Shown here one piece after another: positions 19,566 through 59,950 of a stretch of DNA of 64,000 nt (within the stretch, counting starts at the first letter, position 1; the number at the start of each line of letters is the position of its first letter). Origin of the DNA: Mammaliicoccus sciuri. GTDB taxonomy: Bacteria > Bacillota > Bacilli > Staphylococcales > Staphylococcaceae. The notes beneath the pieces were generated by a model. The model was given only the letters and a program-made list of their open reading frames with translations, was not told the origin of the DNA and did no database searches. Position numbers and translations under genes: made by a program. The stretch covers positions 1,798,001-1,862,000 of the forward strand of contig NZ_CP094824.1 in the NCBI RefSeq assembly GCF_025561425.1, given 5' to 3'.

Positions 19566-19600
19566 GTAGTTACAAAACTACTTGGAATTGTTACTAACTC
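19566..19600 (+). repeat. Diverged single class-B hairpin unit
   Basis: AGTTACAAAACTACTTGGAA then TTGTTACTA keeps both arms of class B (TTACAAAACT and TGTTACTA) at the array spacing, with a changed centre. Between the frameshifted flavoprotein and its terminator. Confidence 0.55.
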
Positions 19601-19628: not shown

Positions 19629-19660
19629 AAGGCTGAGACATTTAAAAATGTCTCAGCCTT
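19629..19660. terminator. Bidirectional terminator, flavoprotein and rhodanese
   Basis: AAGGCTGAGACATTT and its complement ending TCTCAGCCTT make a ~13-bp stem between convergent genes. Confidence 0.9.
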
Positions 19661-19673
19661 ATCTATTTCTTCA

Positions 19674-29293: not shown

Positions 29294-29772
29294 TTATTTT
29301 TTCTTCTTTCGAGTTTCTTCCCCAGTAAAAGGATCTATGTACTCTATCATTGTTAACTGTTCTGCTACTATATCCTCTTGTAATTGATTTCTTATATAAT
29401 TTTCTATCACTTTTTATTTCTACCAACTGTATCTACATAAAATCCTTTACACCAAAATTTTCTGTTACCATATCTATACTTTAAATGGGCATGTCTATCA
29501 AATATCATTAAGCTGCTCTTACCTTTTAAATAACCTACAAATTGAGAAACACTTAACTTTGGTGGAATGCTAACTAACATATGAATATGATCTTTACATG
29601 CTTCAGCTTCTATTATTTCTACACCTTTTCTTTCACACAATTGTCTTAAAATAATACCAATATCTCTTTTAATTTTCCCATAAATAATTTGTCTACGATA
29701 TTTTGGTGCAAACACAATGTGGTACTTACAATTCCATTTTGTATGTGCTAAACTGTTTGTGTCTGATGACAT
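29294..29772 (-). pseudogene. IS200-type transposase TnpA, C-terminus out of frame
   Basis: The intact frame gives 121 aa: HIVFAPKYRRQIIYGKI, then the HUH motif KDHIHMLVSIPP at ~60-71 and FVGYLKGKSS. It stops at 29407. Shifting frame at the run of five Ts (29411-29415, As on the coding strand) restores KVIENYIRNQLQED and EYIDPFTGEETRKKK to a stop at 29294, about 159 aa in total. The restored part holds the Tyr-x-x-x-Gln helix that supplies the nucleophile in Y1 transposases, so the truncated product should be inactive. Confidence 0.82.
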
Positions 29773-35680: not shown

Positions 35681-35796
35681 ATTATTAAATTATATATCAG
35701 TAATCACTGATGACATCATTCTATACCATATCACTAAGAATTACAATTGAAGAAGTTAAATTTATTTTGTTGTTGTTTGTGTGATGATTTCAAAAA

Positions 35797-36090
35797 AGCT
35801 GATAACGGCGGTCTTGTGAACACTTCTGGTCAAACTTGTTTATAACGATGGTCTTGTGAACACTTTTCGGCCAAACCTGTTCATAACGGGGTTGTTGTGA
35901 ACACTTTCGACCAAACTTGTTTACAACGGGGCTGTTAGTTACAAAAGTCGGCTGAATTGTAACTATAGACCCCCTTATTTACAAAACTCCTCTGAATTGT
36001 TACTATGGACAGCCTTAATTACAAAACTACTCAGAAGTGTTAATACTGGTATTCTTATTTGCACTTTGTATCAAAACTGCTAATAACGCC
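35797..36090 (+). repeat. Hairpin-repeat array I (units A3-B3-C1, 40-bp period)
   Basis: Unit starts: class A (TTGTGAACACTT... AACTTGTT-ATAACG) at 35814, 35854, 35895; class B (TTACAAAACT... TGTTACTATGG) at 35939, 35979, 36019; class C (TTGCACTT... AACTGCTAATAAC) at 36059. Steps are 40, 41, 44, 40, 40, 40. Each unit is an imperfect inverted repeat of about 12-nt arms round a 5-7-nt centre, often CGGCC. No coding potential. It occupies most of the gap upstream of the rib leader. Confidence 0.9.
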
Positions 36091-36111
36091 CCATCACCCA
36101 TACATAAAAAT

Positions 36112-36143
36112 AAGCTTGAGACATCAAACATTGTCTCAAGCTT
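36112..36143 (-). terminator. Terminator after the FAD/NAD(P)-binding gene
   Basis: AAGCTTGAGACA and TGTCTCAAGCTT form a 12-bp stem with an 8-nt loop. Confidence 0.88.
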
Positions 36144-36163
36144 ACATTTCAATTTCCATTATT

Positions 36164-42460: not shown

Positions 42461-42780
42461 CGTTGTGAACACTTTTGGCTAAACTTGTTCATAACGGGGT
42501 TGTTAGTTACAAAACTTGGCCGAAGTGTTACTATGGGCCGCCTTAGTTACAAAACTCGGCCGAAATGTTACTATGGACTGCCTTAGTTACAAAACTCGGC
42601 CGAAGTGTTACTATGGACTGCCTTAGTTACAAAACTCGGCCGAAGTGTTACTATGGACTGCCTTAGTTACAAAACTCCTGAGATTTGTAAACAAGGAACT
42701 CGTTATTTGCACTTCTTATCAAATCTGCTAATAACAACACCAGTATTTGCACTTCTTACCAAAACTGCTTATAACGGCAG
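42461..42780 (+). repeat. Hairpin-repeat array II (units A1-B5-C2, 40-bp period)
   Basis: Unit starts: A 42463; B 42507, 42547, 42587, 42627, 42667; C 42707, 42747. The A-to-B step is 44 and every other step is 40. B units at 42547-42666 are nearly identical, suggesting recent duplication; the fifth is diverged after CTCCTGAG. It fills the convergent space between the lipoprotein and sagB. Confidence 0.93.
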
Positions 42781-42814: not shown

Positions 42815-42846
42815 AAAAAGACTCGAAACATTTGTCTCGAGTCTTC
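42815..42846 (-). terminator. Terminator after sagB
   Basis: AAGACTCGAAACA and TGTCTCGAGTCTT pair with one mismatch; TTTTTTG follows on the minus strand. Confidence 0.88.
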
Positions 42847-43782
42847 TTATTTACTATTTTCTTCTTGTTTATCTAATTTTTCATCTAATGCTTTGATTGA
42901 AAGTGACTTATCTGTATCTTCGTATTTATATACGATATAGTACTTTCCTTCTGTTTTGAGTTCGTTATAGAAATCTGCTATTATACGTGCATTACTTTGT
43001 GCCCATTTGATATCTGTTGCGTATTGATGTACGCCAGGTTTCTCTGGGTTCCATCTCATACTATATAAGGTGTTTTGTTCTGGGTTTGATAAATAATGAT
43101 CATGTATAAATTTCGCGCCACCTGATATGGCTTTTTGAGGTGTATCCCAGCCTCTTTTTTTAGCGTAATTTGCGCCTGTTCCGATAGGATCACTGTCTAA
43201 AGCGCCGACACCATAAAAGTTATAATACTTTTTACCATCAGATTCTTCTTTAGATTTCGTTACTTTCCCTTTCTCAGTTAACATGACGCCATTTGCTAAT
43301 TCACTTTTGTTATTACCTGTTTCTAATATCGCGTGAGATATTAAATACACTTCATTAACATGCTCTTTCTTAGCAGCATTTAAAAATTCTGTTGTATAAT
43401 CTTCAAGTACTTCTTGATTTCTTAACATATAATGAATTCGTTTTTCTTCAATTCCTTGATACTCTGATAAGTTCAAGAATTGATATACTTGTTTTTTATC
43501 ATTTAAGATTTTTTCTACATCCATTACTTCATATATTTCGCTTCGTGTTGCATTTTTCCAATTGCCTGACTCTGTTGCTACTTGCATTTTCGTATCATTT
43601 TTATATTGTTTATTTACCGCTTTACTTAAAGTTAATGGTACTTCTACACTATCTTCTTGTTTATCTACTTCATAAAATTTCAAATGATCTGAAATCAAAT
43701 AATAAAACAGGCCAACAATAATTAACAAGACTATTGATAATATGACTAAATTTTTAATGGTTTCTAGCCTGGCATTTTTCAT
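42847..43782 (-). CDS. sagB: Membrane-anchored glucosaminidase SagB
   Basis: 311 aa from ATG 43782 (MKNARLETIK), with GAGGTGA; the frame to 43815 lacks a site. One N-terminal membrane segment (LVILSIVLLIIVGLFYYLI). Glucosaminidase (GH73) domain from ~120: VYLISHAILETGNN with the catalytic Glu, YYNFYGVGALDSDP and KRGWDTPQKAISGGAKFI. SagB cuts glycan strands to set their length in S. aureus peptidoglycan, acting with the membrane protein SpdC. Confidence 0.88.
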   Translation of the reverse strand: MKNARLETIKNLVILSIVLLIIVGLFYYLISDHLKFYEVDKQEDSVEVPLTLSKAVNKQYKNDTKMQVATESGNWKNATRSEIYEVMDVEKILNDKKQVYQFLNLSEYQGIEEKRIHYMLRNQEVLEDYTTEFLNAAKKEHVNEVYLISHAILETGNNKSELANGVMLTEKGKVTKSKEESDGKKYYNFYGVGALDSDPIGTGANYAKKRGWDTPQKAISGGAKFIHDHYLSNPEQNTLYSMRWNPEKPGVHQYATDIKWAQSNARIIADFYNELKTEGKYYIVYKYEDTDKSLSIKALDEKLDKQEENSK

Positions 43783-51458: not shown

Positions 51459-51824
51459 TTCTAACACTCCAATTTTTTCACTGAAATATGATTATATAAC
51501 AAAATTTGAGACAAGTTAATGAATTAGTTATCGTAAAATAATATAAATTATTTCGCATATTTACGTTTTAGGCACACCTATATTTCAAGTACATATTCTC
51601 TTATAATATAATATTTATGTATCTAAAAATTTTTAATATAGTTCTTATGATATGTTTTACTATAGACCGCCTTGGTTACACTTCGACCGACTTTTGTAAC
51701 GCCCTAGATTATTTCCTACGATTTGTCAACTACTACGTAGTAAAAAATATTTAAAATTGGCATCACTAAATAAGCCTTTATTATTTAATAATTTTTTCAA
51801 TATGTTATGATTTAGATGAATATA
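51459..51824. other. Intergenic space between the CDF gene and the IS110 element
   Basis: No gene. One hairpin-repeat unit related to class B lies at 51658-51702 (see repeat entry). The rest is AT-rich; it contains the promoter of the CDF gene and the downstream end of the IS110 element, whose tip I cannot fix. Confidence 0.5.
51658..51702 (+). repeat. Single class-B hairpin unit with inverted core
   Basis: The linker ACTATAGACCGCCTTGG is in the same orientation as in the arrays, but the hairpin TTACACTTCGACCGACTTTT-GTAAC matches the reverse complement of class B. Either the hairpin inverted inside its linker or the near-palindrome drifted. Confidence 0.7.
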
Positions 51825-53036: not shown

Positions 53037-53265
53037 TCCTAATCTTCTAATTTAAGAAGTTTTAACTTCACTGAACCTTACTTAGTTCATTTTCCTGTAC
53101 ACGATCTCAGTGGACCCAACATACTAAAATCGAATTCATAAGGAGAGTGAAGTTCTCCAGTTTTTATTACGGATTCTTTGACCCTAAAATCTATTCGGAG
53201 TACTTCTCTCTTCTACTATTTCATATTCTTAAAATAACTACCAACGGTAAGATAAAGAATATAAA
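53037..53265 (-). ncRNA. Candidate bridge-RNA-bearing left end of the IS110 element
   Basis: About 230 nt of non-coding DNA lies upstream of the transposase on its strand, as in the IS110 group where this leader encodes the bridge RNA. GGAGAACTTCACTCTCC at 53141-53157 and AACTTCTTAAATTAGAAG-type pairs near 53045-53060 are possible stem-loops. Boundaries and guide loops cannot be set by eye. Confidence 0.4.
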
Positions 53266-58662: not shown

Positions 58663-59574
58663 TTACGGGTTAAACTTTTCAATTTCATCCATAATTCTCT
58701 CAAGGTCTTCCACACTATATTGGAATCTACCATGGAATACAAATTTATTAAAGAAATGTTGAAGTTGTTTTTCACCAACTAACACTTTAATGTTAGGGTC
58801 TTGTGAATAATTACTGATAGTTGCTTCACTTACTTCATTTGGATGGAAATAAATAATTGGTGTCGGTGTATATTTAAGTTCTAACTGTCTTTGTAATTCT
58901 TCAGTTGTATTATCAACTTCTTTAACTTCATCAGTATATGAATGGAATGCTGCAGTTTTATTATTTGATTGTTTTTCAAGTAATAATGTTTGTTCTTTGT
59001 TTGGGTTTAAATCCAATGTTTCAAAGACTTGTCCTAATACTGGAAAATCACTAAACTGCTGTTCTGTAATACCGTGATAGATATGACCACTTACTAAATT
59101 AGAGTCAATTACATATATACCCGTTCTTGTTAAGACTAAATGATCAATTTGTCGAACTTTACCTAATGGATCTTTAGGTAAGAAGATATTTGCCATAATA
59201 TGCATATCTTCAGGTCTAATTCTACGTTCATTAACAAGTTGGTCTCTTAACTCTAACAAGTGTCTATCAGTTATATATTCCCCTTCATTCTTAGAAAATA
59301 ACTTTAATGAGTCAATTTCTCTTTCTTTTTGTGAAATTGCTTCTTGATGAGTTTCTTCTTGTTTCGTTAGAACCTTTTTATTTTCAACTCTTTCATGATC
59401 TAACTTTTCTTTATGTTCAGATTTAAGCGTCTCATTTTCTTTTTTATGAGCTTCTTGAATCTTATTCAAAGATTTTTGTTTCTGTTTTAATGAAACAAAG
59501 AATAATATAATAAATAGTATCGCAATAACGATCGCTGCGATTAATCCATAATGAATCGGTTCTAATTGACTCAT
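58663..59574 (-). CDS. Membrane-anchored NERD-domain protein
   Basis: 303 aa from ATG 59574 ([14 protein letters not shown]); GGGAG is about 13 nt upstream, slightly far. One N-terminal membrane segment, a long Lys/Glu coiled coil (~35-100), then a nuclease-related NERD domain: [20 protein letters not shown] (~150-170). DNA processing is inferred for NERD proteins but not shown. Stands alone upstream of array III. Confidence 0.78.
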
Positions 59575-59739
59575 AATTGTAGATCGCTCCCTTTCATATG
59601 TATTAATTCCATTATAGTAAAAATTACAAATAAATTCAGTATATATCATGAAATATATTGATAATATAACGTAATTTCTTATACTTCATACATTTGAGTA
59701 GTTAAACCACACTTTAATAGTAAATATTTTATAAAAATT

Positions 59740-59950
59740 CAGTTCATTATGAACAACTTGACTTAAACTTGTTCATAACGGGGCTCTTGTGAACACTTTC
59801 GCCCAAACTTGTTCATAACGAGGGTCTTGCGAACACTTCTGGCTAAACTTGTTCATAACGGGGGCGTTAGTTACAAAAGTCGCCTGAAGTGTTAATACTG
59901 ATATCCTTATTTGCACTTCTTACCAAAACTGCTAATAACAACCCTACTTC
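59740..59950 (+). repeat. Hairpin-repeat array III (units A3-B1-C1, 40-bp period)
   Basis: Unit starts: A 59747, 59787, 59827; B 59871; C 59911. Steps are 40, 40, 44, 40. The first A unit has TTATGAAC, a better match for its right arm GTTCATAA. Same order and strand as arrays I and II. Lies between the NERD gene and metK. Confidence 0.92.

Follow-up and report, generated by a model that had tools for sequence, protein, structure and literature searches.

Arrays of palindromic repeats paired with a NERD-domain gene: a probable, seemingly undescribed two-part system in Bacilli

The DNA considered here is a 64-kb stretch (64,000 nucleotides; the window) of the 2.92-Mb genome of a close relative of Mammaliicoccus sciuri; the product of its ribD gene is 95% identical to the counterpart in M. 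sciuri NCTC 12103. An array of tandem 40-bp palindromes in this window, array I, is probably the dispersed, non-autonomous part of a two-part system that consists of a gene for a NERD-domain protein and a cognate repeat array, a seemingly undescribed system of Bacillus-like bacteria. The pairing of gene and array is well supported and holds across families of Bacilli, with each gene followed by its own repeat.

Array I and its surroundings

The class profiles place array I at 35814-36094, with seven tandem units in 40-bp register (one of them 41 bp long) in the order A-A-A-B-B-B-C, as the first-pass annotation of this DNA had described it. The array is bounded by a terminator-like hairpin that follows a left-pointing gene, and by the FMN riboswitch leader of ribD. 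The repeat features of the window are the following.

19567..19596, + strand: lone B unit with convergent genes on either side (profile 20.1 bits)
35791..35813, + strand: degenerate 3' half unit preceding array I; CTGATAACGGCGG looks, by eye, like the 3' half of an A/C unit
35814..35853, + strand: unit A1, class A (class profile 43.6 bits)
35854..35894, + strand: unit A2, class A, 41 bp (class profile 46.6 bits)
35895..35934, + strand: unit A3, class A (class profile 46.1 bits)
35935..35974, + strand: unit B1, class B (class profile 40.8 bits)
35975..36014, + strand: unit B2, class B (class profile 41.4 bits)
36015..36054, + strand: unit B3, class B (class profile 31.3 bits)
36055..36094, + strand: unit C1, class C (class profile 39.5 bits)
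36106..36149, no strand assigned: terminator-like hairpin in the interval between array I and the right-hand gene; inverted repeat with 18-nt arms, 89% complementary, hairpin plus T-run
42462..42780, + strand: array II, A1 B5 C2 (class profiles; TRF period 40)
51675..51700, - strand: lone B unit (profile 20.2 bits)
59746..59943, + strand: array III, A3 B1 C1 (class profiles; TRF period 40)

Arrays II and III contain the classes of array I in the order of array I. A near-consensus class A pattern, with up to three mismatches allowed, has one match in the window and none in any of 100 shuffles, and the Rfam scan of the window returned the FMN and SAM riboswitches only. Terminator-like hairpins adjoining arrays (36106-36149, 19630-19661 and 42815-42850) have in common, by eye, a core near GAGACA...TGTCTC. 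Array III is adjoined by a protein that looks NERD-like (58663-59649, - strand), presumably of the S. aureus SmdA type, in which the four-cysteine module described below was not seen.

The repeat family in the genome and in related species

Further copies are plentiful: the covariance models of classes A, B and C yield, respectively, 38, 82 and 45 rows at E <= 0.01 in the genome of the window, a few of these rows calling one unit twice, and altogether about 160 units are found in 38 intergenic arrays. The units form 39 clusters, that is, 38 arrays once an insertion-split one is counted as single. All clusters are intergenic, as judged from genes called by a purpose-made ORF picker, not from the annotation; 15 lie between convergent and 24 between co-directional genes, and none between divergent genes; in the window, 7 of the 23 gene gaps of at least 100 bp are divergent. 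In the 21 mixed arrays, the class order is A-B-C in 17 and C-(B)-A in four (at 291, 1540, 1547 and 1932 kb); some arrays are of the B type only, with arms mirrored at one position. Units of one array resemble each other more than they resemble units of other arrays in class B (identity 0.877 within vs 0.783 between) and class C (0.914 vs 0.829), but hardly so in class A (0.845 vs 0.837). One A-B-C array (G000:C1:2204791-2206209) is interrupted by a transposase-like gene of 388 codons, which we take to be IS256-like. Among the A-B-C arrays, 14 of 17 are oriented against the presumed direction of replication (binomial p 0.013), with dnaA at base 1 and the terminus assumed at the midpoint, a tendency that is confounded with gene direction.

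The first-pass annotation had named arrays at the same loci in relatives as a check, and M. sciuri has them. The M. sciuri genome (G003) has arrays at 24 array sites for which one or both flanks could be aligned and units at eight more that were followed by synteny, i.e. at all 32 comparable sites, six of the 38 arrays being unaligned to this genome. An empty M. sciuri counterpart, as a recent jump would leave, was not seen among these 32 sites. Four M. sciuri arrays (L145, L146, L150 and L153) had no match among the array loci of the window's genome; the predicted counterpart of L150 (2551-2563 kb) does not contain the flanks of that locus, so that it gives no empty site. The positions of the arrays are stable at the compared places, and their contents turn over: the copy number differs widely between genomes, with one locus, for example, reading A2B1C9 in the genome of the window and A1B9C2 in M. 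sciuri. The array of locus I is absent in M. fleurettii and M. stepanovicii, and the only empty sites seen (L005 and L006) are too diverged for any target duplication to show.

Among 108 genomes of Staphylococcaceae, the C model (E <= 1e-4, strict filters) found units only in the genome of the window, in M. sciuri and in G004; among eight Mammaliicoccus genomes, the B model (E <= 1e-3) found them in the former two and, with a single marginal hit, in G001. When six other Mammaliicoccus genomes were searched with the C model at a laxer cut-off (E <= 0.05), there were 28 hits in G004, six in G007, one in G005 and none in three; the loci read from this search are arrays of 40-bp units whose arms are related and whose centres differ. 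Array I had no match in plasmids, array II none in phages and class A none in viral contigs; class B sites were found in 28 viral contigs, one in each, of which, by profile, 26 contain no unit and two (L181 and L184) one B unit each. Searches of plasmids and phages, and a pattern-limited scan of viral contigs, likewise gave no match to the NERD protein introduced below. Spread of the repeats by phages, plasmids or viruses was rejected on this near-absence of both units and protein.

The cognate NERD-domain gene

Directly upstream of the gene-linked arrays lies a gene whose product, some 300 residues long, has a NERD (nuclease-related) domain at its N terminus and, further on, four invariant cysteines. 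All 20 aligned members match the Pfam family PF08378 at E <= 0.1 (the best at 2.5e-19), and two members score 56.7 and 57.5 bits against its model (cut-off 22.1). The residues E37, Q65, D67, K82, Q109, C209, C212, C229 and C232 are identical in 63 of 63 full-length proteins, and E80 is retained in 57; from the domain match and these residues, nuclease activity can be predicted. Comparison of one of the proteins with solved structures gave no match, and the profile gave weak hits to zinc ribbons.

Relatives of this protein are encoded in all eight Mammaliicoccus genomes (51 rows, some of which are two halves of one gene). With four rows left out, they make up a sample of 44 places, in which the split gene of the window's genome counts as two places, one with an array and one without. 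The search of 398 Bacilli genomes found matches in 28 genomes from 18 of 146 genera, the window's genome included, and its best-matching loci supplied the 28 places from other genera. Among the matches listed by a profile search across 398 genomes of the phylum, all full-length relatives come from Bacilli; the matches in other classes extend over the NERD part.

A tandem array follows the stop codon at 55 of the 72 gene places (30 of 44 in Mammaliicoccus and 25 of 28 in other genera), as judged by a periodicity threshold of 0.62, which was chosen after the largest shuffle value had come out at 0.60. Control ORFs from the same loci have periodic downstream DNA in only 3 of 111 cases (Fisher 1e-27, uncorrected for relatedness). 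This is the clean control; an earlier count, 40 of 191 ORFs, was void, since an ORF that converges on the gene looks onto the array of that gene. Among the ORFs of the window, three of 60 are followed by periodic DNA, two of them owing to arrays II and III. Upstream of the NERD gene, periodicity was detected at three of 70 places, the strongest case (L296, G334) being one in which a 52-bp periodicity flanks the gene on either side. Of the 17 places below the threshold, all but L258 and L265 were read by eye; 11 have at least one palindromic or partial unit, and none was seen at L239 (a split half), L241, L260 or L310. The automatic palindrome test was passed by only 29 of the 55 arrays. The linkage is specific to proteins that combine the NERD domain with the cysteines: arrays were found at none of 21 NERD proteins without the four cysteines, as against six of seven with them (three of the seven were already among the counted places).

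Within Mammaliicoccus, the repeat class can be assigned to its gene. A C-type array directly follows the gene in M. sciuri, G004, G007 and, in split form, the genome of the window, and in M. sciuri some ten tandem units of the B type come after the class B gene; no class A gene was found among the genes examined in the window's genome and M. sciuri. The array at 1932 kb corresponds to L219 of G004 and L202 of G007. NERD relatives at such places (in the genome of the window, G001, G003 and G004) share 46-68% identity with the protein of G007, and the gene on the other side of the array is 92-94% identical between the window's genome and G004 or G007. More generally, there are several NERD-gene paralogs per genome, with differing repeats behind them, and the 7-mers of the arrays track protein identity (Mantel r 0.33 for 51 loci and 0.42 for 27 Mammaliicoccus loci), with none of 2000 permutations reaching as high.

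Dispersal in another family, and damaged genes

In G343, a member of another family, the array beside the gene gives 74 BLAST rows at about 11 places, the gene-side place included. Three of the dispersed arrays were read; they have periods of 51-52 and lie between ORFs, and the gene before one of them encodes a transporter instead of a NERD protein. Since the gene-linked repeat is dispersed in this genome too, the species of the window is not alone in having such a layout.

In the genome of the window, both cognate genes are damaged. The class C gene (1930-1932 kb) is split by an insertion, which we assume to be IS3-like, and the class B gene (1741 kb) is nearly complete, its last residues and the array having been lost beside unrelated sequence. 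Across 24 paired loci, this genome has 66 B units vs 131 in M. sciuri, with 16 loci lower, three higher and five equal (p 0.004); with six more loci, 21 are lower, three higher and six equal (p 2.8e-4). The paired strings were assembled by hand, with weak B units of the window's genome (10-15 bits) counted and one low-scoring M. sciuri B call in L141 omitted; among the eight added places, L222 has one B unit that was left out of the count, and L224 has none. The counts of C units, 33 with the gene split vs 44 in M. sciuri with the gene intact, do not differ significantly (p 0.23), nor do those of A units (31 vs 26), which have no cognate gene and are, if anything, more numerous in the genome of the window. 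The smaller number of B units where the B gene has lost its end comes from one species pair and is suggestive only.

Periods rise by helical turns

The periods of the 55 arrays are 39 (4 arrays), 40 (8), 41 (17), 42 (2), 51 (4), 52 (15), 53 (1), 61 (3) and 62 bp (1), that is, they are quantised into classes of 39-42 bp (31 arrays), 51-53 bp (20) and 61-62 bp (4), with none in between. The 51-53 class spans eight families and three Mammaliicoccus genes, the 61-62 class is found in two other genera of Staphylococcaceae, and the 39-42 class in two families, with one further 40-bp array in a third. This last array (L328) is G-rich and has a visible 20-bp sub-period, unlike the palindromic arrays. 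Related genes are not independent in these counts; nonetheless, the three period classes recur in distant hosts. One turn of B-DNA takes 10 to 11 bp, and steps of one helical turn point to double-stranded DNA as what is recognised; these whole-turn steps are the main ground for preferring binding of duplex DNA. Of the roles offered by the first-pass annotation, protein-binding sites spaced near four helical turns fit best, as the period increases by whole turns across Bacilli.

Unit design and conservation

The first-pass annotation recognised three classes with little sequence in common and one design. The division into three classes stands; however, by our reading of the column tables, all three fit a half-site near T-R-N-K-W-R-C-A, and on this comparison of sequences they are best seen as relatives rather than unrelated designs. 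Among the distinct units of standard length from the window's genome and M. sciuri (54 of class A, 185 of class B and 76 of class C), the arms hardly vary, and variation is found in the central 8 bp and the spacers. The arms had been described as complementary pairs, which does not fully apply to classes B and C: at arm position 6, T is opposed to T in 76 of 76 distinct C units, and in the 185 B units the same position has T.T in 101 and A.A in 48, as against 34 units with a pair and two with another combination, opposed to what pairing would demand. The variable pair 4 of class B (GC in 94 and AC in 54 of the 185 units) is near the column-count prediction of independence.

Within classes A, B and C, no arm pair is altered on both sides. 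Between classes, the arms differ on both sides at three positions, which sites for a dimeric protein would explain equally well as hairpins. As the arms do not covary within a class, selection on hairpin structure, which had been proposed from the survival of arm pairing between classes, is not supported. Nearly invariant arms around a variable centre are what is seen in dyad sites for proteins where an asymmetry is conserved, not in a covarying hairpin. Several gene-linked classes with unrelated arms have in common, by eye, a motif near AAGACTGA..AAA between the arms.

A two-part system and its proposed mechanism

The first part of the proposed system would be the protein, about 300 residues long, which begins with a NERD domain of the PD-(D/E)XK type and continues through a zinc-ribbon-like module of four cysteines into a C-terminal tail. 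The second would be its cognate tandem array of imperfect palindromes, each unit measuring some 4, 5 or 6 turns of the helix, immediately behind the gene, along with further arrays elsewhere. The protein is envisaged to bind duplex DNA at both half-sites of a unit; the sites of neighbouring units would then lie roughly on one face of the helix, and the nuclease of the protein would cut or nick the DNA in or near the array. Repair via recombination or slippage would then make arrays grow, shrink and homogenise, and could occasionally seed an array elsewhere, which would survive where it is harmless, between gene ends. Array I, in such a scheme, would be an outpost made of B units, cognate to the gene at 1741 kb, C units, cognate to the gene at 1930-1932 kb, and A units, for which no cognate gene was found.

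Whether this amounts to a categorically new selfish or domesticated chromosomal element of Bacilli, in which a nuclease of the PD-(D/E)XK type propagates, expands and homogenises helically phased arrays of its own palindromic site by breakage and repair, with repeated birth of protein-palindrome specificities, is in our judgement an even question. If true, dispersed repeats of Bacilli would have a cognate enzyme, as REPs have RAYT, but with an unrelated nuclease and a whole-turn rule. How DNA is recognised, how arrays grow and how specificity evolves would become directly testable, because nature provides dozens of protein-site pairs, each of them a small gene with its repeats legible alongside. 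Some of the variable-number tandem repeat loci in these genera may also find their explanation here.

Alternative explanations

A nuclease of host defence or DNA processing could be held by the arrays, or the arrays could mark the chromosome as self, with array-less DNA being attacked and the spread of repeats a side effect. The PD-(D/E)XK-type domain, the several paralogs per genome with differing repeats, the stability of arrays between two species at the 32 sites compared and the lack of the protein in plasmids, phages and viral contigs would all suit such a role; however, three of the NERD proteins had no match among the PADLOC families, and the arrays persist although the B and C genes of the window's genome are damaged. 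We regard this explanation as unlikely.

Alternatively, the array might be co-transcribed with the gene, its hairpin RNAs guiding or inhibiting the protein, or being processed by it, in the manner of type III antitoxins. The position directly after the stop codon would be in line with that, and folding of both strands, which the first-pass annotation had named as a check, gave better structures for arrays I and II as RNA than for any of 100 shuffles. Yet an RNA would not be expected to change its period in steps of one helical turn, no covariation is seen between the arms, dispersed arrays occur without the gene, and, in a crude scan, a terminator-like hairpin precedes the array at 34 of 52 facing gene ends (it is absent at 18). 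In type III toxin-antitoxin systems, a nuclease gene lies beside tandem repeats of about 40 bp, and the repeats are upstream of the toxin. The likeness extends to a nuclease gene with a tandem array of units of about 40 bp; the differences concern the side of the repeats (here downstream at 55 of 72 places and upstream at 3 of 70), the enzyme family, the dispersed arrays and the phasing with the DNA helix. Taken together, an RNA function appears quite improbable.

The arrays as passive satellites or BOX-like mobile repeats, formed by composite insertion and replication slippage next to an ordinary neighbour gene, would account for tandem growth (slippage alone yields it), for the avoidance of divergent gene pairs and for a module order with variable counts that recalls pneumococcal BOX as described in parts of PMC3049150, but would leave the gene linkage in many genera, the tracking of the protein by the repeat class and the whole-turn periods unexplained, and is very improbable.

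Comparison with known repeat families

In the literature searched (including passages of PMC3532100, PMC3049150 and PMC3733652, with subscription papers mostly outside its scope), no NERD-linked repeat arrays are named. One of the closest likenesses is to the REP/REPIN elements with RAYT (TnpA-REP), or REPtrons, which, in the passages available (PMC3733652, PMC8266576, PMC3116915), are likewise dispersed palindromic extragenic repeats with a linked gene for a DNA-processing enzyme and a repeat class paired with that gene. Dispersed palindromes cognate to a linked gene are found here for classes B and C (in the window's genome and M. sciuri) and for G343. However, as these passages describe them, RAYTs are HUH Y1 tyrosine transposases (PF01797 type), whereas the gene linked here encodes a NERD protein (PF08378) with four cysteines; a GTAG (or CGTC) tag stands at the end of the REP palindrome, whereas the end columns of A, B and C show no such consensus; and REPs are tagged singlets or inverted pairs, whereas the units here form direct tandem arrays, helically phased and downstream of the gene. 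Since enzyme, tag and unit layout all differ, the system is not a member of the REP/RAYT family; by analogy, it would work like one with an unrelated enzyme of the PD-(D/E)XK type.

The BOX elements of Streptococcus pneumoniae, in the passages of PMC3049150 that describe them, are intergenic composites of A-Bn-C modules, over-represented between convergent genes; a BOX-type order is seen in 17 of the 21 mixed arrays and is reversed in four. In distinction from BOX as presented there, all three classes amplify here and there is a linked gene. Terminal inverted repeats and target site duplications are further features of BOX; the empty sites L005 and L006, which could bear on the duplications, are the diverged ones named above. 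The STAR elements of Staphylococcus aureus are, in the passages of PMC3532100 devoted to them, intergenic direct repeats with variable copy number at stable loci, but they have a different unit, and a linked gene is not named in those passages. The 14-bp STAR motif TDTGTTGKGGCCCM, with up to two mismatches, has one match in the window (53110-53123), outside the arrays, with 1.4 expected by chance. Identity with STAR was rejected on the absence of the motif from the arrays, and the searches, as the first-pass annotation had surmised, brought up no named staphylococcal element of this kind.

The suggestion of REP-like units moved by an IS200-type transposase holds as an analogy as far as the repeats are concerned, but the partner is a NERD-domain gene, not IS200. 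IS200 as the mover was rejected, the PF01797 genes being multicopy IS200 and fragments thereof with ends that, by eye, are unlike the units; IS200 was the one resident IS compared in this way as a possible parent of MITEs. The genome of the window (G000:C1) yields ten PF01797 rows, corresponding to about nine IS200 copies or fragments, one of which lies near 29413-29739 of the window.
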